Made by a program: the position numbers and the translations under genes. A stretch of DNA of 64,000 nt from Rhizodiscina lignyota. Its lineage: Eukaryota; Ascomycota; Dothideomycetes; Aulographales; Rhizodiscinaceae. Shown here piece after piece: positions 1 through 47,748 of this stretch (the first letter of the stretch is position 1; every line of letters begins with the position of its first letter). The stretch is taken from contig ML978123.1 of assembly GCA_010015805.1 (NCBI GenBank), forward strand, positions 806,001-870,000. Reading direction: 5' to 3'. The notes beneath the pieces are model-generated. The model searched no databases. It was not told the origin of the DNA and worked only from the letters and a program-made list of their open reading frames with translations.

Positions 1-858
1 ACTCCCTTACCGTCCGCGACCAAGAAGACGATGACGATGAAGGTGGAATCGACCCAGCTATTTGGGAGATTGTGCTTCATCGTGTTGTCGCTGTGACTGT
101 TGGTACGATGTGGGGTATGATTGTGACCAGGCTCATCTGGCCTATCAGCGCGCGGAAGAAGTTCCAAAATGGACTGTCGGTATTATGGCTACGCATGGGG
201 CTAATCTGGAAACGGGACCCGCTCTCTATATTGATGGAAGGCGAACCCGGGTCAAGTTACATGGACATTCGAGAATCGATTGAGCTTCAGAGATTCCTTT
301 CAAAGCTGGATGGACTAAGAGACTCAGCAGCTTATGAGTTCGATCTGCGCGGCCCGTTCCCGAAGGAGACCTTTGGGAGAATACTGAAAGCGACAGGCCG
401 TATATTAGACGCATTCTATGCGATGAATGTTGTCATTGTCAAGGACCTCAAGGCCACCCCCGGTGAGGCAGAAATCTTGAAATATACCAGGAATGAGCGG
501 ATGCAGCTCTCGTCACGCATCTCTCATCTCTTCTCAGTTCTGGCGTCTTCGATGAAACTGGAATATCCGCTCAATGACGCATTACCGAATATTGAGCATA
601 CGAGGGACCGATTGTTAGCAAAATTGTTTCAGTTTCGGACGCATATGACAGGACAGCCAAATGCACCTACAGATGAGGACTATGAGCTCTTCTATGCGTA
701 CTGTAAGTTTTGTTATTCACTTTCTTCGACAGAAACATGCTGATGATCTGCTTCTAGCTTTGGTTACTGGTCAGCTTGCGCAAGATATTGGTGACATTGG
801 TAGGGACATAGAGCAGTTATATGGTGTGCTCAATGAGGACAGCTTGAAGCTTCAATAG
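1..858 (+). CDS. FUSC/aromatic-acid-exporter-like membrane protein, 3' part
   Basis: The frame is already open at the left edge, so the 5' part is missing. Coding runs to 702, an intron spans 703-757 (GTAAGT...CTTCTAG), and the last exon is 758-858. The visible part has an acidic loop (QEDDDDEGG), then a hydrophobic segment with a VGTMWG core followed by WPISARKK, then a long cytosolic-looking helical tail. That order (membrane bundle, WP.SAR motif, helical tail) is typical of fungal members of the fusaric-acid-resistance/ArAE superfamily (Bre4-like, DUF2421/2422). Such proteins are thought to export aromatic or amphipathic compounds; the substrate cannot be read from this fragment. It ends 63 bp from the stop of the convergent DPH5 gene. 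The family call is fairly safe, the transport role is inferred. Confidence 0.75.
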
Positions 859-921
859 TCATTACGTCTAGTTTGATACCCACTACCAAAATGCATTTTC
901 TTCGGCGTTCAATATCGTGTC

Positions 922-1898
922 CTAGCCTTTTCCAGCATAGTCATTCTCCCAGACCTCATCAAATGTCTTCTGATTGACTGCAAAGTCTCGAAGGTACTCC
1001 CTCTCGAGGTCATGCGTCCTTCTTCCCAGCAACACCACACTGTGAAGCGGCTTGCCCACGTCAACGTCGCATAGCTCTTCCAATGTCCCAACCACAAACG
1101 TCTGGTCTTTTGCGCCTACTCTCGCTGCTCCAACAGCCAAACTGCGAGGTCCGTAGACAGCTTCCTTCCTCTCCTCTTCAACCTCCAACATCTGACTCGC
1201 GCATGTCGCCACGCTCATGTATCTCGGTTGCTCATACACGATCTTGCCACGGGCCAGCATGTCCAGATTAGGCTCCTTGACCTTGATGTCCAGCAATATC
1301 AACGTATGCAAGCCGATTTGTACATTCTCTTTCACGCGGTCGTAGAACGACGACGGTTTCCACGTCTCAGTAAAGAACACCATTGAGACGGTCTGTCCGA
1401 AGTTGTAGAGTTGTAGGCCACAGGCTCCAATGGCCGAGAGAATAGAGGCATTGGGAATCGAGGTGTAGGCGATATTCAGTGCGCGAGCGCGGAGGAGGAG
1501 GTCTGTGTGGGTTGTTGCGCTACAATCGACTCTATAAGCGTGATTTCAGATACAAGAAGGGTGTAGAATTACCCAAATGGGTCGCCAACGACGAGGAATG
1601 CTACATCGACTTTGTCTGCGTCGGCGAGGATAGTGTCGCTGGACGACTCGACCATTTCGCGGTCGGCTATGATTACAGACCTCCCATAGAAAGCTTCCTA
1701 CTGATGGCGACCATATCTATTAGCCTACGTATTCCGCAGCAGTTAAATGGCATGATCATTCACCAATTGCTCCTTGTCGACCAAAAGGACTGCAGTGTAT
1801 GCTTCCAGATACACCCTCTCGGCCTTTTTTACGACGTCGAGGCCTTTGACAGTGATGTCAGTCTCATCGGCCAGACCGAGGCCTACGAGGTAGAGCAT
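922..1898 (-). CDS. DPH5: Diphthine methyl ester synthase
   Basis: Three exons on the minus strand: 1764-1898, 1573-1697 and 922-1519, giving 285 aa, the usual fungal length. The protein opens [16 protein letters not shown], the S-adenosylmethionine-binding start of the tetrapyrrole-methylase fold, and continues with EAFYGR, VVGDPFGATTHTDL, the [15 protein letters not shown] segment and [14 protein letters not shown], all hallmarks of Dph5. Dph5 transfers four methyl groups to the modified histidine of elongation factor 2 during diphthamide synthesis in the cytosol. An in-frame ATG lies 10 codons upstream (1928), but family members start at MLYLVGLGL, so 1898 is chosen. Introns are 66 and 53 nt. 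The gene is divergent from SPT3. Confidence 0.93.
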
Positions 1899-2150
1899 TT
1901 TTGTCGTATCTCTCTGGATCGTCGACAATGTTGCAGCGACGTGGGTATCTGCACAGTCTGATCAGAATTAGATGTGGCTTGAGAGCACTGGCCATGGACA
2001 TGGGGCTCTGCCGCCTCGTAAGGCTGAAGGCGGTAAGCGATCTGCGACCGGGGTACGTACTTCTGCCGCTGCAACTTGTTAAACCCAGCCTCAGTTTCCT
2101 CTCTTCATCAACTCCACCCCTCTTTTCATGTGAGAACCACAACCTTCAAG
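1899..2150. promoter_or_regulatory. Shared divergent promoter DPH5/SPT3
   Basis: This 252-bp gap separates the start codons of two divergently read genes and must hold both promoters and both 5' UTRs. The SPT3 side carries a pyrimidine-rich run (ctcttcatcaactccacccc) just before its ATG, common in fungal leaders. No specific factor site was identified. Confidence 0.5.
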
Positions 2151-3645
2151 ATGTCTTCAGATGGCTTCACCCCAAAGTACCGGACAGAGATCCAGCAGGT
2201 ATGTGGTCCATTTCTTTTCGCTTTTACCGCAAGCCCTTCTGTTTGGGTTAAGCAAGTCGCGTGTTTTTCGCTTGATCGGAGTCGTGAACGCTCTAACACA
2301 CCACACGTTGTTTTGTTATTGTTTACTCTCTATCTCTATATATGCAATACTGTTATGGCTACCCCAGAACCTCATCCAATACATCAACTTGCGGGAACAC
2401 ATGAATTCCTCCTCGGATTACGATATGCCCGATGACTTCGTTGTCCCGGATGGCATCAACATCCACAAGGCGTGCTGGCTGCAGTGTCTTGGAGAAACGA
2501 AGCATGGCTCAAAACTTGCTCCGTCCTTTCCTTTCGATGACGACGCTGTCTTGAATAATGAGTCTACGTCTGGGTTCAAAATTCGGCTGATTCATTTGAT
2601 CGAGCAGATGATGTTCGTGTCTGGCGAAACGGGTGAAGCCGCGGTAGAAACGACTACGCTCATCGAAGAAATCGTTCGAAACCAGGTCCACCACATGGTA
2701 CGTTGCTTTCCTTCCCCATCTTGTGCTTTGAATAAATTGCTGACGAACAACACAGCTGAAGGAGAGCACCGATCTCGCGAACCGCCGTGGCAACCGTGCT
2801 ATCGCCACGACCGACTTGATGTATCTGATCCGCCATGACCGCGCAAAGCTCTCAAGACTTCGTCATTTCTTGCAGTGGAAAGACGTGCGCAAGAATGTCA
2901 AGGACAGCTCCGACGACAAGGGCGCTGGCGATGCAGGCGTTGATCTAGCAGGTGGTGACGAGGCCCTCGGCGCAGGTCTAGGTGCAGGTCCTGATGCGAC
3001 TGTCGACATGAAGAAGAACAAGAAGAACCGCGTCGAGCTGCCATGGGATGTCGCGAGCTACTTCTCAGAGCAAGTGCCTCCACGTGACGATGAAGAAGAC
3101 GAAGAGGAGGAGGAGATGAACTTCGCTACCCTTCAACGCCTCAAGTTGGCCGATGAGCGCACCAAGAACATGAGCAAGGAGGACTACATGCACTGGTCTG
3201 AATGCCGTCAGGCCTCCTTCACGTTCCGCAAGGGCAAGCGCTTCCGCGAGTGGGCTGGCTTTGGCGTGATCACCGACTCGAAGCCGAACGACGACATCAT
3301 CGACATACTGGGCTTCCTCACGTTCGAGATTGTGCAGACTCTGACAGAAGAGGCCCTCAAGGTCAAGGTGGAGGAAGATATGGCGAAGAAGCAGAGCGGT
3401 ATTGGCAAGGAGCAGCCCGGACACAAGAGGAAGAGGGAGCCAGGCTTGTTCGACTTGCCAGAGGAGGAGAGAGAACCTGTCAGCAAGGCGCATGTTCAAG
3501 AGGCGTTCAGGAGGACTCAGCAACTTAGCCTGAGGAGCAAGGCACTTGGACTGAGAATGCATATCATCAAACAGCCGCTGAAGCTGGTGAGTTTAAGACA
3601 AGACCGTGCTACATTGCTACATGTTCTAACATGAAACAGATTTGA
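2151..3645 (+). CDS. SPT3: SAGA complex histone-fold subunit Spt3
   Basis: Four exons: 2151-2198, 2608-2697, 2756-3586 and 3640-3645, giving 324 aa. The N-terminus reads KYRTEIQQ joined across intron 1 to [16 protein letters not shown], then a second histone-fold stretch ([20 protein letters not shown]) and [20 protein letters not shown]. This is the TAF13-like histone fold of Spt3, which helps SAGA deliver TATA-binding protein in the nucleus. An acidic loop ([10 protein letters not shown]) precedes the second, TAF11-like half (about residues 175-320). The last coding exon holds one codon plus the stop (ATT TGA). Intron 1 is 409 nt, far longer than any other intron resolved here. Length matches the family (310-340 aa). 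Confidence 0.93.
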
Positions 3646-38000: not shown

Positions 38001-39238
38001 CTAGCTTTGTGGTGGATGCAAAGCTACTCGCCATTGAAGTATCGCGAATATAAGCTGCGCAATACTAACTAACAAGCCTACGTCCAAATGAGTCTCTCTT
38101 AAGGCGCTACTTCTGACGGGATGTTTTCATCGACGGACTTACCAAGGAAGCTGAAAATCACACTTAGAAATAACCCTACTATGGCAACAGTCAATGCGTT
38201 TCGCTCAGACGTATGTCTTTCGAACCAGGCTACAAGCCAATTGGCCGGAGGAGGGTTGTCGACAATATCCAACAGCTTCAGCAGCCGATCGCCCCAGAAT
38301 TCATACAGAAATTCATCCAGCGGCTCACGCACATGCCCTTCATCAGTTTTGGCATTAGGATCAAACCCCTCCTTCTGGACAAGCTTATCCAGAAACCTTT
38401 TGGATTTCGAGTCTGTCCCAATCGGGAAAAGGACGAAATGAATGGAGTCAAGCGTCTCCAGAAGGAGTTGTGGAGGTAACGTCCCACTACAGGCTAGACG
38501 TCAGTTTGAATGTGGTCGGTGGCCCATCTCATACTGTTTCATTCATTTCACTTACATCTTGAGGCTCTCCTCGAAGCTTAGGTCGATTGGTTGATTAAGC
38601 GAACGCAGAAGCTGGGCTTTTAAGAAGCCCGTGTGGTGGAAAATTTTCACGCTGCGCTCTTCTGGATCGTATAGCAAGTGCTCTCTGATGTCATCCGTTG
38701 CCCGAAAGTTGATGTTGTATCGCTTCTTCAGTTTCCATGCTTTCAGTCGTTTCTTTTGTGCGAGCGCCCCTCGTATCCTGATATTGCGAGTGGCGTCCTG
38801 CCGTGGGAAGCATCCCTGCACGAGGTCGACGAACTGTACGTCGTGTTCCCACTTCAATGGAACGAAATCGTTCAGAGTGAACCCCGCAGGATAGCTCTGT
38901 TTAGATTCGCAATCCAGCATGAAGGTTACACGAACTAAGGACCGTATCGCGGCTGCTTTATCTTTGTCCTGGCTGCCGCTGGAATTGAGACGGACCATCA
39001 TCTCATTGTGCGTCTGCGATGGGTCCGCTCTGAGATCCTTTGAGAAGGCGATAACACTGTCGTGCGATTCGAAAACCGGGTTGTCAAGTAGGATAACAGC
39101 ATCTTTGATGCTAGAGGGGCATATGACCTTTTCATAAAATTCCAGGTACGTAGCGTACTGTTCCAATTTTTTGGAGGCGCCGTCACATAAGAACGCCTCC
39201 GCGATTTTCTGCAGATCCAGCTTGCTCGGAGGTTCCAT
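38001..39238 (-). CDS. Fungal protein of unknown function with C-terminal membrane anchor
   Basis: Three exons, 38556-39238, 38143-38486 and 38001-38077, give 367 aa. I know the pattern as a many-member ascomycete family without a function. Its hallmarks are visible: FVPLKWEHDVQFVDLVQGCF, LKKRYNINFRATDDIREHLL, the join M|GTLPPQLLLETLDSI, DEFLYEFWGDRLLKLLDIVD, NPPPANWLVAWFERHTSERN and a hydrophobic end (ALTVAIVGLFLSVIFSFLG joined to LLVSIAQLIFAILQW). The last segment reads as one long or two short membrane helices, with nearly all of the protein on one side. No signal peptide or catalytic motif. The short last exon is chosen because it restores the hydrophobic ending; without splicing the frame ends after SVDENIPSEVAP. 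It lies head to head with the kinase fusion gene. Confidence 0.78.
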
Positions 39239-39984
39239 CCTGGGTTGAAGTGTACATCACTCATTCTAAGCCTTTTATTCTACAGACAGGACGGCCACAT
39301 AAATTTATCTCTTTCGACAGTGTTGTCAGGTTCGCCTATCATCTAATTCGCACGACATATGCAGCGCCCGCTTCGGGCGATGCATGATGCCCAAGGTAGC
39401 TGGGCAACTCGGCTGTGCTAAGCCACCCTTTCTGGAGTCTACGCAAACCAGCTGCGGTCATTCCAAAATCCAGGCAGCATTTAAGCAACCAATACGTTCG
39501 CCTTCAAGCTCCAGGCACCTACGATACACCGATGGGGTGTGAGAGGCGGGGAACTGCTCAAGGCGTACTTGCACCGCCACAAACTTGCCCAAGTCGTGCG
39601 TGGCCACGCATAGATTCGCTTCAGCGGTCTTGCCAACTTTCCCTTCTCTTTTACTTTCATTTCCCGCCCTGCGCAAATTCTATGTGAGGCACTACCGTCT
39701 CAAGCTCTAGACAGTTCGTTCATGACCGTTCATCTAGACTCGAAGCCGCGCGGCACAAGGCTGACAAGCTAGATCATTAAGAATTTAAGAGAACTAGTTC
39801 GATCATTTTGGGCTTCGATTGTTTATCATTCTTGACCTACAGCACGGCCTACTTCACCCGTTGTACTGCGGGTGCCGCAAATTTAAGCACGCTTATCTAG
39901 CTTCCGGATGCAATTGCCTCGATTATTTTCTGGTCTCCTCCAGCACAACAGGCGCATCCGCCATCAGAGTTCTCAGGAAACAAA
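39239..39984. promoter_or_regulatory. Divergent promoter region of the two accessory genes
   Basis: 746 bp between divergent start codons of the membrane-anchored protein and the protease-like/kinase gene. Both promoters must lie here, so the pair could share control. Only short frames without features are seen. Confidence 0.45.
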
Positions 39985-42900
39985 ATGGCTACCACCATTG
40001 TGTCTTCATATTCCACCGAACTCTCTCATTGCGTCTCCGATTCTTCAGACGACCAAGCGACTGACGGTCCATCCGGGTAATTCGTGCCCCATATAAAGTA
40101 AAGGTGTCGTCATGATGCTCATATACTCTAGGTCCTCGCTTTTGATACAACAATCAGGCCATGTACCCAATGCTCCATCTCACAATCCTTTGCTGCCTGC
40201 CGTGCCAATTCATCAACCTGTGTCCCATACTTCTGATCATGTCGATGGGGAACCAAATATCACTAGCTCCGGAGTTGCGCCACTACCTTCCTCCTTCTCC
40301 TCCTTACAAAGCCCAAGTTTGAGCGCCACAACAATAACTCCTGCTTCGCCCGACTTTAGAGGCCGTTTAGCTCTCCCAGGATACAAAGCGGATCCGATAA
40401 TCTACGTATATCCACATGCTCCAGTCCCCCGGGAACACCTCGATCGAGCACCTCGGGTTATACAAATATTCCGCGAAAATGTCTTCAATTCAAAAGAGAA
40501 GATTGTGAGTGGAAAGTATTTGAAAGATCAGATTGCGATGGTAGATTATGTGGTGAAAATGTGCGGACCTTCTCCTGCTGAGGCAAGGCCCTCGATATTG
40601 GCGATTTGCACCCCAAAGACTCTTCCAGCTCTGAAAAAGGAACTCACTCAGCCTCACGTTCGATCCCAATATTGCCAGAATGATGGCCCTGGGTATCTTT
40701 CTCGCCTTATGGGAAAGAGGGACACCATTGATGTTCCCAGACCCCAATTTGGCCTATATTTCTGGGCAGACCGTGCTGGACCCAGGACACTCTGCTGGCA
40801 CGTTCCTGGCATACGCAAATCCAAAACCAGCACAGGGCCATTGGCTAGCCTCATGTTATGTGGATCTCGCATACGTCCCAGAGACAAGAATTCGACCAAC
40901 TCTTCGACCTTCGCTACTCTTGGTTGCGTATTACATATTGACTCCGAATTTTATGGCTTGACCGTCGCCCACGTGTTTAGAACAGCCACAACTACTGGGT
41001 CCAAGGCCAGTGACCACAGACGGGCGGAAGTGAATGATAGTGGCGGCTGCAATGAACCTATCGGGAGTAGCACAACCGAAAGCGAGGACGAGAATAGCAT
41101 CGTTGATTTCGATGAGGACTACGACTTTTCAGATGAAGATGAGGACGAGTCGGAAATAGAAGAGAACAGCGAGGTATCTCCCACTTTTACGGACCCTTTA
41201 AGTGAAAGGGAGGGTGGGGGATTCTCAAGGGCAATGATTGATATGCCAGGCAATGAGTGTACGGGCAATGAGTGGGCAGACGTTGAACACGTAACAATCC
41301 CTGACGATCATGGTCTCATTCCAGACCACTCAGACTTCGATTGGGCAGGCCTCAGAATGGCTACACCGCTAAAGCGGCTCCCAAATGCTTATATTGTATG
41401 TGGCAGAGAAACCAGCGTGCAGGTCATTTCCGATATCGCAACAGGTCAGCCTCAGAGACCGAGGAACGTTCACATCATCTCATCGTACGCAACCACAAAA
41501 CATGGCGTTCTTCTTCCTGGGAGCTCATTCGTGGGAAGCCTGAGCGGGCGGGGCCCTTCTGAAGTCTGGAACGTCTCGATGTCTGATTCCAATGGTCAGT
41601 GATGAAATCTCTCTCCAAATATTTCAGTATTTATCAAACAATTGGCTCACTCAACCAGGTATTGAGCCGGGAGACTCTGGTTCTTTAGTCGTGGATGCTG
41701 TCACACACATTGCCTATGGTCATGTTGTGGCATCTAATCCCCTTGGGCAGGTCTATATTGCTCCATTGCCTGCCGCCGTGGAACAGATTAAAGCGGTCTT
41801 CAAGACCAGTGCAGTTCGCCTTGCTGATCCATTACGTCTACTGAGAGACAAGTTGATCACATACTTTCAATCAAAAACCTTTACGGACAACTTACGAAAA
41901 GAAGATATGCTTGCTTTCCATGCTTTCTCGAGGCTAGTTCAGGAGTATGCAGCAGGGAAGGCTTCTTCACAGCTCATGACCCCGCATTTTGATAGGACTG
42001 CTGTAAGTAATAACATGTTCAAACCCTACCAAACATTTCCAGCGTATCAATCATATCTGATTTTACTCAGCTCCAGTATACTTTGAAGGACTGTGACTGC
42101 AATATGACGAAAATGGCCATAACGGATGTGCTTGACTCAAGGACCAAACTGGCCGAAGGTGGCTTTGGCACTGTGTACCAAGTAAATATCTCGAAGGATA
42201 TCTGGCCCATTGTTCCTTTGAGCAGCAACGCCAATCCAGTTGTAAGTATAAAGCAACGATTATCCTGTTACGTGGCTAATTGCAGACCGACATACAGTTC
42301 GCGTGCAAACGATTACCCATGAAAACCAATCACGTCAGCCAGTGGCAAACTGAAGCTACAGTCCTTCAAAAGCTGAGGAAACACTCCAATGAACACATCA
42401 TAGAGTTGTTAGCGAATTTCTCAGCTGGAGACAGCTACTATCTTATCTTCCCGTTGGCCGAGTGCGATCTGGATTCTTACATGTCATCGGACCCTCGCTC
42501 ATCAGATGGACCTTATATAACCTGGATGTTGAGACAGTTTGAAGGCCTAGCATCAGCACTGAAACTGCTTCACAGTTCGTTGGATGGTGGACGATCAGCT
42601 GGAACTCATCACGATATCAAGCCTGCGAACATTCTTGTTTTCAATTCAAGCAATGAGTCTTCACAGGATACGCAATCAACGTATGGGACGCTGGTACTTG
42701 CAGACTTTGGGTTGTCGAGCGTTCAAACAAAACCCTTCTCAGCCACGCGTGGGTGCGCATCAGGGTCGAAGTTGTGGAATAGTCGAAGTCGAGCGGACCC
42801 ACTGTATGCAGCGCCGGAGAGCGAAATCCCTTCACTAGCGCATCCAAACATGGGGAGTGTCGACATCTGGAGCCTTGGTTGTGTTATGATAGAAGCCTGC

Positions 42901-43941
42901 GTTTGGCTGACGTATGGTGCGGAGAAGAGATTGCAGTTCTTGAAGGAGTTACAATCCGATACTACCAGTAACTCACCATCGTACTATGAGGCTCATGCAA
43001 CAGCTTCGGACGTTAGATTCTACCTCAAGCCGCAGGTGTCGACATGGATGACATCGCTTCTGGAAAATAGTAAAGGCAATAGGATGCTACACAGAACTAT
43101 AGATCTCCTGACGAATGGTCGTATCCTGGATCCCGACCCCAATTCCAGGCCAACAGCTTCAGAATTGGTCGTCAAAATCCGTGCAATCTTGCAGGCGGAA
43201 GAAGCTTCACTCCACGAGAGCGCTAAATCATCCTCGGACAATACCCCAGTGTGGACTCGTACTTGGGTATCCCTTAAAACAGAGTCGTGTGACAAAGAGG
43301 CTGTGGACAGCGATACCTATTGTCAGTCCGATGTCACCGCATCACCGTCATCTGAGAGCGAGATAAGGCAACAGCATACGGCGAGACCCGATTGCCTTCA
43401 CCCATCAGACTTGGATAGCCTCGGCCATGAGCCGGACGAGATCCCTATCGGACATGCACCATTGAAGCAACTGTGCCCCTATTGCACGGAATTCGGAAGG
43501 CCGAAGTCTCTGAAATATCACATTACAGCTAAACATCGGCTTGCACACCCTCATGAATGCCCAAAGTGTGGTCGCTTATTCAGCCAAAGCGAGCATCTGT
43601 CTACACATCGAAAAGATGGTTGCTTTCCACCTGAAGCTTCGTCTCGACTGTCTTCCGGTTACCACGCTGCTGGGAAAGGGAGCATCACTTCAAATGATGA
43701 TCCTATGCATTCTAACGCATCAGATATACGGTGCAAAATCGATGCGGAGAGCCAATCAATTTCTGCCATTGAAGAATCACCGCCAGAGCCACAATCAATT
43801 AGCACTCATAGCGCTCCCGTGTGTCACACTCATCCGTGTACGGACAGTATTGCTCACCCCCCTGGAGCAAAGGGAATGAGGAGCGGTGGTGTCAAGCGGT
43901 ACCCTCGTGGTCGTACTGGCCCAACAGTGGAGAGTTTTTGA
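39985..43941 (+). CDS. Trypsin-like fold / protein kinase / zinc-finger fusion protein
   Basis: Five exons, 39985-40076, 40132-41594, 41659-42002, 42071-42241 and 42298-43941, give 1237 aa. Order: Ser/Pro-rich N-terminus (1-110); a predicted trypsin-like barrel with His311 (LTVAHVF), Asp434 (DFDWAGL) and Ser525 (PGDSGSLVVD), with a long acidic insert between His and Asp; a linker; a protein kinase (about 655-990) with glycine loop LAEGGFGTVY, Lys694 (FACKRL), Asp796 (HHDIKPANIL) and DFG Asp826, so probably active; then two zinc fingers, C2H2 (1083-1103) and C2HC (1111-1132), and a disordered tail. All four junctions keep frame with good splice sites (introns 55, 64, 68, 56 nt). There is no signal peptide, so it is likely intracellular. 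Substrates are unknown. The barrel could be a regulated protease or an inactive binding module. Confidence 0.8.
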
Positions 43942-44815: not shown

Positions 44816-47748
44816 ATGTCCGGTCGCAAAGACTTTCTGAACCAGCCCGCGCCAGAAAATTACGTCGCTGGTCTCGGTCGAGGTGCCACCGGCTTCACAA
44901 CACGATCTGATCTCGGTCCTGCGCGCGAGGGACCTAGCGAGGACCAGATTAAAGAGGCGCTTGCCAAACGTGCCGCGCAACTTGGAGCTGCTCCGCCCAC
45001 TGCGTACGGCGCGACCGAGAAGAAAGAGGAAGATGATGACGACGACCGATTCCAGGACCCTGACTCCGAGTTCGGCCTCTTCGCGAATGGCGTCTACGAC
45101 AGGGAGGATGATGAAGCGGACAGGATATACCAGGATGTGGACGAGAAGATGGAGAAGCGGAGGAGGTTGAGAAGGTTAGTCTCCCCGTTACTACACTGCC
45201 CTCATATCCGCCGCTTGTTTAAGTACTTCTTGCGCAAGTATTGGCAGCGTTTTTGTTTCAATCCAGCCGTTAAACGGTGAACAGTATACCGACTTGAGTT
45301 TCGTCCAGGGAAGCACGCGAGAAGAAAGAACGCGATGAATACGAGCGCAACAACCCGAAGATTCAACAACAATTCGCAGACTTGAAGCGCGAGCTCGGCA
45401 GCGTCACCGACGACGAGTGGGCGAATATACCAGAAGTCGGAGATCTGACGGGCAAGAACCGACGGACAAAGCAGAATCTACGCCAGCAAAACAGATTCTA
45501 CGCTGTTCCTGACAGCGTTCTTGCTGGTGCCCGAGATGCGGGCCAATTCGACACGACTCTCAACGATGATGAGCCACCGGCAAATAGGGAGAGCGACGGG
45601 ACCGTCACGAATTTTGCAGACATCGGCGCGGCAAGAGAAAGGGTGCTCCAAGTGAAGCTGGATCAAGCTGGGCAAGGCTCAGGCACAGATTCAGTGGCAG
45701 GAACGTCGACGAACATTGATCCCAAGGGCTATATAACTAATCTTGTCAAGTCGGAGCTCAAGGCCGCCGAAATTCCTGTCGGAGACATCAAGCGAGCGCG
45801 TGTGCTCCTCGAGTCCGTCATCAAGACGAATCCTAAGCATGGCCCTGGCTGGATCGCTGCTGCACGTTTGGAAGAGTTTGCTGGCAAGATTGTGGCTGCT
45901 AGGAACGTCATTGCGCGAGGATGCGAATTCTGTCCGAAGACCGAAGATCTCTGGCTGGAAAGCATTCGACTGAATGAGAAGCGCAACGCCAAAATCATCG
46001 CTGCGAATGCCATCAAGCACAACGACCGCTCTGTGCGACTGTGGATTGCAGCTATGCAATTGGAAACAGAGCCTCGAGATAAGAGGAAGGTTTTGCAGAA
46101 AGCTTTAGTTGCAGTGCCACAGTCTGTTGCCCTCTGGAAGGAAGCTGTCAATCTCGAAGAGAATCCCGCCGATGCACGTCTGATGCTTGCCAAAGCCACT
46201 GAACTCATTCCCCAGTCCGTAGAGCTTTGGCTTGCACTAGCACGTCTGGAGACTCCGGATAACGCCCGTTCCGTACTGAACAAAGCCCGCAAGGCCATAC
46301 CTACGAGCCACGAAATCTGGGTGGCTGCTTGTCGTTTGGAAGAGCAGATGGGCAATACCGGTATGGTCCTGAAGGTCATGGAACGTGGTATCAAATCACT
46401 GGCACGAGAATCAGCCATGCTGAAGCGCGAAGAGTGGATCACGGAAGCCGAGAAATGTGAGGAAGAGGGCGCGATTTTGACGTGTGGTGCAATCATTCGC
46501 GAGACACTTGGATGGGAACTTGACGAAGATGATGACCGCAAAGACATCTGGATGGACGATGCACGTAGCAGCATTGGCAGAGGCAGATATGAGACTGCAC
46601 GTGCAATTTACGCCTACACCCTGCGCGTCTTCCCAACCGGAAAGAGCGTGTGGCTCGCCGCTGCGGATCTAGAACGCAGTCATGGCAGCAAGGAGGCGTT
46701 GTGGAGTGTTCTGGAGAAGGCAGTCGAAGCATGTCCACGTAGTGAAGTGCTGTGGATGCAGCTTGCGCGTGAGAAATGGCAAGCAGGATCAATCGACGAC
46801 GCGAGACGGGTGCTGGCCCAGGCATTCAATCAAAATCCGAACAACGAGGACATCTGGCTCACTGCTGTGAAGCTCGAAGCAGACAACAAGCAGATAGACC
46901 AGGCCAGAACGCTGTTAGACGACGCAAGACGAGAAGCTGGTACAGATCGCGTCTGGATTAAGAGTGTTGCGTTCGAAAGACAACAGGGCAATCCAGATGA
47001 GGCTCTCAATTTGGTGAATGAAGGCCTACAACGCTATCCCAAGGCTGCGAAGCTCTGGATGCAAAAGGGCCAAATTTACGAAGCCCAAAACAAACTGCCC
47101 CAAGCCCGAGAAGCCTACACAACTGGCACGAGAGCCTGCCCAACGTCCGTTCCACTCTGGCTCCTGTTGTCACGCGTCGAGGAGAAGATCGGTGCCGTCG
47201 TCAAGGCGAGATCTGTTCTAGACCGGGCGAGACTGGCTGTGCCTAAGAATGCTCAGCTCTGGACCGAGAGTGTGCGTCTCGAGAGACGAGCGAACAATAA
47301 GGAAGCGGCCCAAAAGCTCATGGCCCAGGCCCTCCAAACCGTCCCTGTCGCCGAATCTGGCATGTTGTGGGTGGAGAGGATATGGTATCTCGAGCCACGC
47401 ACTCAGCGGCGACCACTGGCCGTCGAGAGCGTCCGGAAGGTTGACAACGACGCCGTGCTCTACGTCACCGTCGCGCGCATCTTCTGGGGCGAACGCAAAC
47501 TCGAGAAGGCCGCGACCTGGTTCGAGAAGGCGATCCTGCTCGACGCGGATCTCGGCGATAGCTGGGTCTGGTATTGGAAGTTTCTGAATCAGCACGGCAC
47601 GGAGGAGAAGAGGGCGGAGGTGCTAGCGAAGATTGCACTGGCGGAGCCCAAACATGGCGAGATCTGGCAGGCGGTCAACAAAGCACCTGAGAATGCTGGG
47701 AAGAGCGTTGAGGAGATCCTGAAGCTGGCCGCGGCGAAAGCTGAATGA
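44816..47748 (+). CDS. PRP6: Pre-mRNA splicing factor Prp6 (Prp1)
   Basis: Two exons, 44816-45174 and 45309-47748, give 932 aa. The N-terminal PRP1 domain is plain: MSGRKDFLNQPAPENYVAGL, GRGATGFTTRSDLGPAR, DPDSEFGLFANGVYDREDDE, ADRIYQDVDEKMEKRRRLRR, then RTKQNLRQQNRFYAVPDSVL. From about residue 260 about twenty HAT/TPR-like helical repeats follow (GPGWIAAARLEEFAGKIVAA, LWLESIRLN, VRLWIAAMQLE and so on) to the end. Prp6 bridges U4/U6 and U5 in the tri-snRNP; the length equals the human and fission-yeast proteins. The 134-nt intron is one of the longer ones here and splits an Arg codon (AG|G). Strong core-gene identity makes it a good right-hand boundary for the accessory island. Confidence 0.95.

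Follow-up and report, generated by a model that had tools for sequence, protein, structure and literature searches.

A trypsin-like protease gene of Rhizodiscina lignyota belongs to a family recurrently paired head-to-head with the gene of a putative membrane protein

Two-gene protease/gasdermin clusters of fungi, in which the gene of an S8 or CHAT protease adjoins the gene of the membrane protein that is activated, are described in the accessible parts of PMC10197012, PMC12881547 and PMC10989679. The accessible part of PMC12881547 also mentions cluster proteases fused to kinase-like domains, as well as HELL domains in combination with a kinase or pseudokinase domain. In bacterial conflict systems trypsin-like domains serve as effector or activating modules of immunity-like proteins (PMC8195603, in part), and in many fungal genomes no more than one to five models of trypsin-like peptidases are present (PMC3516569, in part). 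Here, we analyzed a gene in a 64,000-nucleotide stretch of contig ML978123.1 of the ascomycete Rhizodiscina lignyota (assembly GCA_010015805.1, positions 806,001 to 870,000; hereafter the window), which encodes a trypsin-like domain, a protein kinase domain and two finger motifs in one model. We give slightly under an even chance to the reading that it forms the protease half of a duplicated cassette of two genes, composed of an intracellular trypsin-like protease with variable attached domains and a membrane-anchored protein encoded head-to-head with it. This reading starts from the architecture, the paralogue family, the conservation of the catalytic residues and the repeated divergent arrangement of the two genes, all of which were observed in the genome.

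The locus resembles the HET-Q2-like protease/gasdermin clusters, as the accessible parts of those papers present them, in that a protease gene lies beside a gene whose product is putatively membrane-acting and in that the proteases are multidomain. It differs from them in the protease, which is of the S8 or CHAT type there and has a trypsin-type triad here, in the head-to-head pairing and in a partner without a known family. Pfam scans of the window protein and of individual members showed no S8 or CHAT protease domain. The accessible main text of PMC9815663, PMC10197012, PMC12881547, PMC12258605 and PMC10989679 does not contain the word trypsin, and no description of the protease/partner module was found in the accessible text of the open-licence literature searched. 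By analogy with these clusters and with the fungal HET-Q2/HET-Q1 pair, the cassette would be a variation on the known fungal protease-controlled two-gene modules, and it is this likeness that suggests its function.

An earlier note on this DNA had proposed a single five-exon gene joining a trypsin-like fold, an active-looking kinase and two zinc fingers. The catalytic positions were located where it had placed them: H311, D434 and S525 follow each other in H-D-S order, with GDSG at residues 523-526, and an acidic insert separates His and Asp. As a single query, the N-terminal half of the window protein gave no match in Pfam or NCBIfam and one match in PDB (E 0.28), which was judged to be due to chance; a PHROGs search gave no match and PADLOC no credible one. 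The Ser-strand exon matched paralogues from the same genome with E values of 2.8e-5, 4.3e-4, 5.3e-4 and 0.072, and the His and Asp of the window protein were assigned by multiple alignment, not by a pairwise match.

Profiles were then compared with 177635 PDB sequences. For the seven-member profile (A2), the His-Asp insert was removed in all members, the homeodomain region from L018 and one stretch from L068; the trimming anchors were hand-picked and the columns then aligned with MAFFT. All 22 matches of this profile at E <=10 were chymotrypsin-fold proteases by name (best E 0.016), the fold of each being what we take its name to imply, and included HtrA/Deg/Do (DegP/DegQ/Do), factor Xa, Der p 3 and NARROW LEAF 1. 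A five-member profile gave 18 chymotrypsin-fold proteases among 22 matches (best E 0.011), the other four being PurE-type entries, and the reversed-profile control gave a single match, to the non-protease PllA (5odu, E 1.2). On this profile evidence the N-terminal half of the window protein is predicted to be a trypsin-type domain, in agreement with the earlier note. Two points weigh against it. The PDB matches are individually weak, as the best E values indicate, and mostly span the His-Asp half; and Pfam Trypsin_2, searched over the genome, gave four matches at three places, none of them in the window protease family. In the per-member Pfam scans, Trypsin_2 (E 0.013) and Peptidase_S32 (E 0.012) were each matched in one of five members and were set aside as too weak alone.

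The family shares with HtrA/Deg and other clan PA proteases the H-D-S order, the GDSG motif and the Asp-to-Ser spacing, which is 91-100 residues in five of the seven members. It differs from them in the His-Asp insert and the extra N-terminal domain, and the window protein has no Pfam trypsin match. NARROW LEAF 1, a protease that acts inside the plant cell, is similar through a weak profile match up to GDSG (4 of the 22 PDB matches), and we know of no kinase, fingers or membrane partner in it. No sequence link of the window family to the bacterial trypsin-like conflict systems was found in one pattern scan of bacterial and archaeal genomes, where an 8-residue pattern gave 11 matches and 0 relatives.

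At least seven members of the protease family, including the window gene, were identified in the same 33.4-Mb genome. The paralogues were modelled in part, some 5' and 3' exons lying outside the models. All seven members have an additional domain of about 100 aa in front of the protease; it is clear between L016, L017, L018 and L067, and in L019, as in the window protein, it is weak and detected by multiple alignment only. L017 (3586-4344) carries this domain again after the protease, and the repeat is 30.8% identical to the domain of L018 over 130 aa (E 3.9e-13). A modelled intron lies about 3-7 codons before GD[SC]G in five of the seven members, with L019 and L068 having no intron there; because this position recurs, the joining of the His/Asp exon to the Ser exon is supported. 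In the multiple alignment His and Asp were present in all seven members and the nucleophile Ser in six, with Cys (motif GDCG) in L017. This replacement and the long inserts, which place His and Asp 68-173 residues apart, would suit a protease-like scaffold whose fold is kept to bind and not to cleave. We regard such a scaffold as quite unlikely, since His and Asp are retained throughout despite trimmed cores that are only 20-28% identical to that of the window protein, and since Cys itself can serve as the nucleophile in a trypsin fold, as in the viral 3C proteases.

The second component of the proposed cassette is a divergent gene next to the window gene (Table 1). The membrane helix predicted in its product has a mean hydropathy of 2.41 over 19 residues and is followed by 13 residues; in three homologues 16-20 residues follow the helix. 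When the genome was searched with the window partner, five loci were returned (window, L016, L017, L018 and L067), and at each of them the match lies head-to-head with a protease member. An all-against-all comparison of 726 open reading frames (ORFs) of >=50 aa, covering 17 kb of the window and, at every other locus, 4-8 kb (E <=1e-4), added a sixth partner at L019 (5287-6408, plus strand; E 1.6e-5). Genome searches with three partner proteins place a homologue head-to-head with six of the seven protease members. With hand-picked start codons, the start-to-start distances of the six pairs are 747, 516, 433, 506, 416 and 492 bases, and the two window genes presumably share the region between their start codons as a divergent promoter. 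The protease unit and the partner were the only families common to the loci in the ORF comparison, shadow frames over the partner gene excepted. Five partners share 23-39% identity in the compared first-exon piece. Among the ORFs compared, a partner is lacking for L068/L070 alone, the member that has a HeLo-like stretch of its own.

Several points weigh against the cassette reading. The L016 partner (806-2169, minus strand) has an in-frame stop just before the membrane helix, and this copy may therefore be broken. A distant partner-like gene occurs at C7:1691133 (L075:2557-3882; E 0.0065) with no protease module seen in the surrounding 6.5 kb, and its product has a C-terminal membrane segment similar to that of the partner; a second, short partner-like match (E 0.011) was found on the L018 side at C14:170556. 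A mirror-tree comparison of five pairs gave no significant correlation between the similarities of the paired proteins (r 0.48, a value reached by 11 of 120 permutations). Whole pairs may have been duplicated, and as this can explain the repeated pairing, the six cases do not count as six independent events. Finally, the partner has no recognisable family and gave no informative match in Pfam or PDB. A match of the partner profile to an mRNA capping enzyme (E 1.0) was taken as chance. A gasdermin identity received no support from Pfam (four partners scanned) or from the PDB profile, no fungal gasdermin having been used as query. The idea that a HET domain replaces the partner was dropped, as the HET-fused L019 has both.

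The domains attached to the protease differ between members. At L019 (485-4834, minus strand) one intronless 1450-aa frame comprises the trypsin-like module, a HET domain (PF06985, E 7.3e-25) and an IQ-type motif (E 0.0013, below cut-off). In L018 a homeodomain (minus strand, about 3713-3510) with NWF in helix 3 interrupts the trypsin-like domain after its Asp strand and before its Ser strand; the match to PF00046 has E 1.6e-6 on a 61-aa spliced piece and 0.0019 on the unspliced frame. L070 (2692-7396) contains a HeLo-like stretch, then a pseudokinase-like domain and then the trypsin-like module in neighbouring frames, and the neighbouring L070/L068 frames are probably joined. The kinase-like domain of L070/L068 reached 30.9 bits with PF00069 (cut-off 31.7) and was above cut-off with DUF7580 (E 4.9e-7); read by eye, it has DLF in place of the expected DFG. 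No attached domain was recognised by Pfam in the frames scanned of L016, L017 and L067. Because paralogues carry HET, homeodomain or HeLo/pseudokinase stretches instead, the kinase/finger tail of the window protein is one of several attachments. The conserved features are the pre-protease domain, the protease and, in six of seven members, the divergent membrane-protein neighbour; the kinase/finger tail is not conserved. L070/L068 resembles the HeLo-like/HELL kinase proteins (MLKL-like), as the accessible part of PMC12881547 describes them, in its HeLo-like stretch and kinase-like domain, and differs from them in the protease module that follows.

The kinase of the window protein matched PF00069 (residues 691-985, E 6.6e-18, 65.5 bits, above the Pfam cut-off) and PF07714 (residues 657-896). 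Its motifs are EGGFG 662, CKR 697, HHD 798 (the HxD motif), DFG 830 and APE 866, so that, judged from the Lys/HHD/DFG/APE residues, it is active-looking, as had been proposed. Four other kinase matches were found in the genome at E <=1e-5, none at a protease member; one of these loci, read over 2.1 kb, showed a kinase frame and no protease module. The two fingers (CPYC 1087 and CPKC 1115) fared less well: both have the Cys/His motifs, but only the second matched PF00096 (zf-C2H2; E 0.0031, 18.3 bits), below the cut-off of 25.2, and therefore they are recognised at the level of pattern. Pfam found neither a HET domain (PF06985) nor a HeLo match in the window protein, and reported no NACHT or NB-ARC in it or in the scanned paralogue frames.

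Fingers in the window protein and a homeodomain in L018 mean that DNA-binding-type modules occur in two of the seven members, which would fit a self-processing regulator. The protease would then cut its own chain, for example in the linker at residues 585-655, and free the kinase/finger part for the nucleus, or in L018 work with the inserted homeodomain, and the partner would be a tether or regulator and not the victim. The presence of NARROW LEAF 1, a nuclear plant trypsin-like protease, among the PDB matches is in line with this. We nevertheless consider it unlikely: the finger match is below cut-off, the L018 homeodomain lies inside the protease domain so that cutting would not simply free it, and Pfam found no DNA-binding domain in the scanned frames of the other five members.

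The five-exon model was confirmed as one open 1241-aa frame with canonical introns. The exons are 39985-40076, 40132-41594, 41659-42002, 42071-42241 and 42286-43941. Introns 1-4 measure 55, 64, 68 and 44 nt, with donors GTAATT, GTCAGT, GTAAGT and GTAAGT and acceptors CTCTAG, AACCAG, ACTCAG and TTGCAG. Splice enumeration left eight combinations open (1234-1241 aa), varying solely in the intron 3 acceptor and both ends of intron 4. A codon-usage score, calculated against one neighbouring frame, preferred the modelled frame in exons 2-5 and not in the short exon 1, and the scores were mostly below neutral. An in-frame ATG upstream of the kinase would allow two adjacent genes to have been misjoined, the protease gene ending near 42086 and the kinase gene beginning at 42104. 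This is highly improbable. If intron 3 is retained, the protease frame stops at 42086 and the next in-frame kinase ATG follows after only 18 bases, which leaves little space for a second gene; intron 3 is clean (GTAAGT and CTGATTTTACTCAG), and both points support the joining of protease and kinase. In addition, L068 has a kinase-like/protease fusion within a single unbroken 1218-aa frame.

Returning to the two-gene cassette, the protease would be intracellular and active. Its attached domains would sense or relay a signal, in the window protein by phosphorylation, upon which the protease would be switched on. It might then cleave or otherwise activate the membrane partner, as S8/CHAT proteases act on fungal gasdermins, and the cleaved partner could alter membrane integrity or release a signal, in a setting of self/non-self recognition or antiviral cell death. 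A link to self/non-self recognition, already suggested in the earlier note, is supported by fusions of the protease unit, in its paralogues, to a HET domain (L019) and to HeLo-like and pseudokinase-like stretches (L070/L068), and the repeated two-gene device may serve self/non-self defence. The HeLo match in L070 counts against this, being below the Pfam cut-off (E 0.0063, 16.8 bits versus 23.2). The earlier interpretation is supported in part, as regards the trypsin-type domain with an active-looking kinase in one model and the self/non-self link; its proposals of a sensor and of a protease gated by phosphorylation stay conjectural. The lack of conservation of the kinase/finger tail had escaped it.

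The window locus does not stand out as a defence region, because the neighbour at 45298-47748 resembles the splicing factor PRP6 (judged by eye, without a search). Such a neighbour would be in keeping with an ordinary stress or developmental protease-kinase without a conflict role, whose duplicates are still paired merely through a common promoter. That explanation appears rather improbable to us in view of the HET and HeLo-like fusions of the same protease module and of the strong divergence of the members. It is possible, though doubtful, that the cassette belongs to a class of fungal immunity or allorecognition modules not described before: a trypsin-fold protease would be wired to interchangeable sensor domains (kinase/fingers, HET, homeodomain, HeLo-pseudokinase) and would activate a non-gasdermin membrane protein that is anchored near its C-terminus. 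Protease-controlled pathways of regulated death in fungi are described for S8 and CHAT proteases with gasdermins. A third class of protease, attached to HET, HeLo-like and kinase domains and acting with another kind of membrane partner, would mean a further route of self/non-self response in fungi; the loci would be testable candidates for incompatibility loci, and the partners would form a protein family whose role is open to study.

Table 1. Features of the window locus and positions of the paralogous protease loci
Feature	Position	Strand	Basis or remark
Five-exon gene model, 1241 aa: N-terminal domain, trypsin-like domain, kinase, two finger motifs	39985..43941	+	canonical introns, one open frame
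Conserved N-terminal domain, ~residues 116-255	40385..40804	+	weak in window protein (multiple alignment only)
Trypsin-like domain, ~residues 291-566, split by intron 2	40910..41801	+	alignment and profile search
Catalytic codons	His311 40970-40972; Asp434 41339-41341; Ser525 41676-41678	+	computed from exon table
Intron 2, directly upstream of GDSG exon	41595..41658	+	position common to modelled introns of L016, L017, L018, L067
Protein kinase domain, ~residues 655-985, intron 4 at 42242-42285	42134..43170	+	PF00069, PF07714
Two C2H2/C2HC finger motifs	43474..43623	+	Cys/His motifs; second finger PF00096 below cut-off
Divergent partner gene, ~360 aa, two exon frames (ATG 39238 to ~38555; 38500-38099)	38099..39256	-	C-terminal membrane helix
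Region between the two start codons	39239..39984	.	hand-chosen start codons
L016	C1, 2.376 Mb
L017	C14, 0.197 Mb
L018	C14, 0.167 Mb
L019	C14, 0.454 Mb
L067	C6, 1.874 Mb
L068/L070	C1, 1.388 Mb

Some further observations were made at these loci. C14 (0.8 Mb) carries three of the seven protease members and is possibly an accessory or fast-evolving region. The neighbour frames of the partner-like gene at C7:1691133 resemble, by eye, a metal-transporting ATPase. A DSGYSS motif, which we take to resemble a phosphodegron, recurs near protease genes at L017:2204 (+), L018:4790 (-) and L016:4337 (+).

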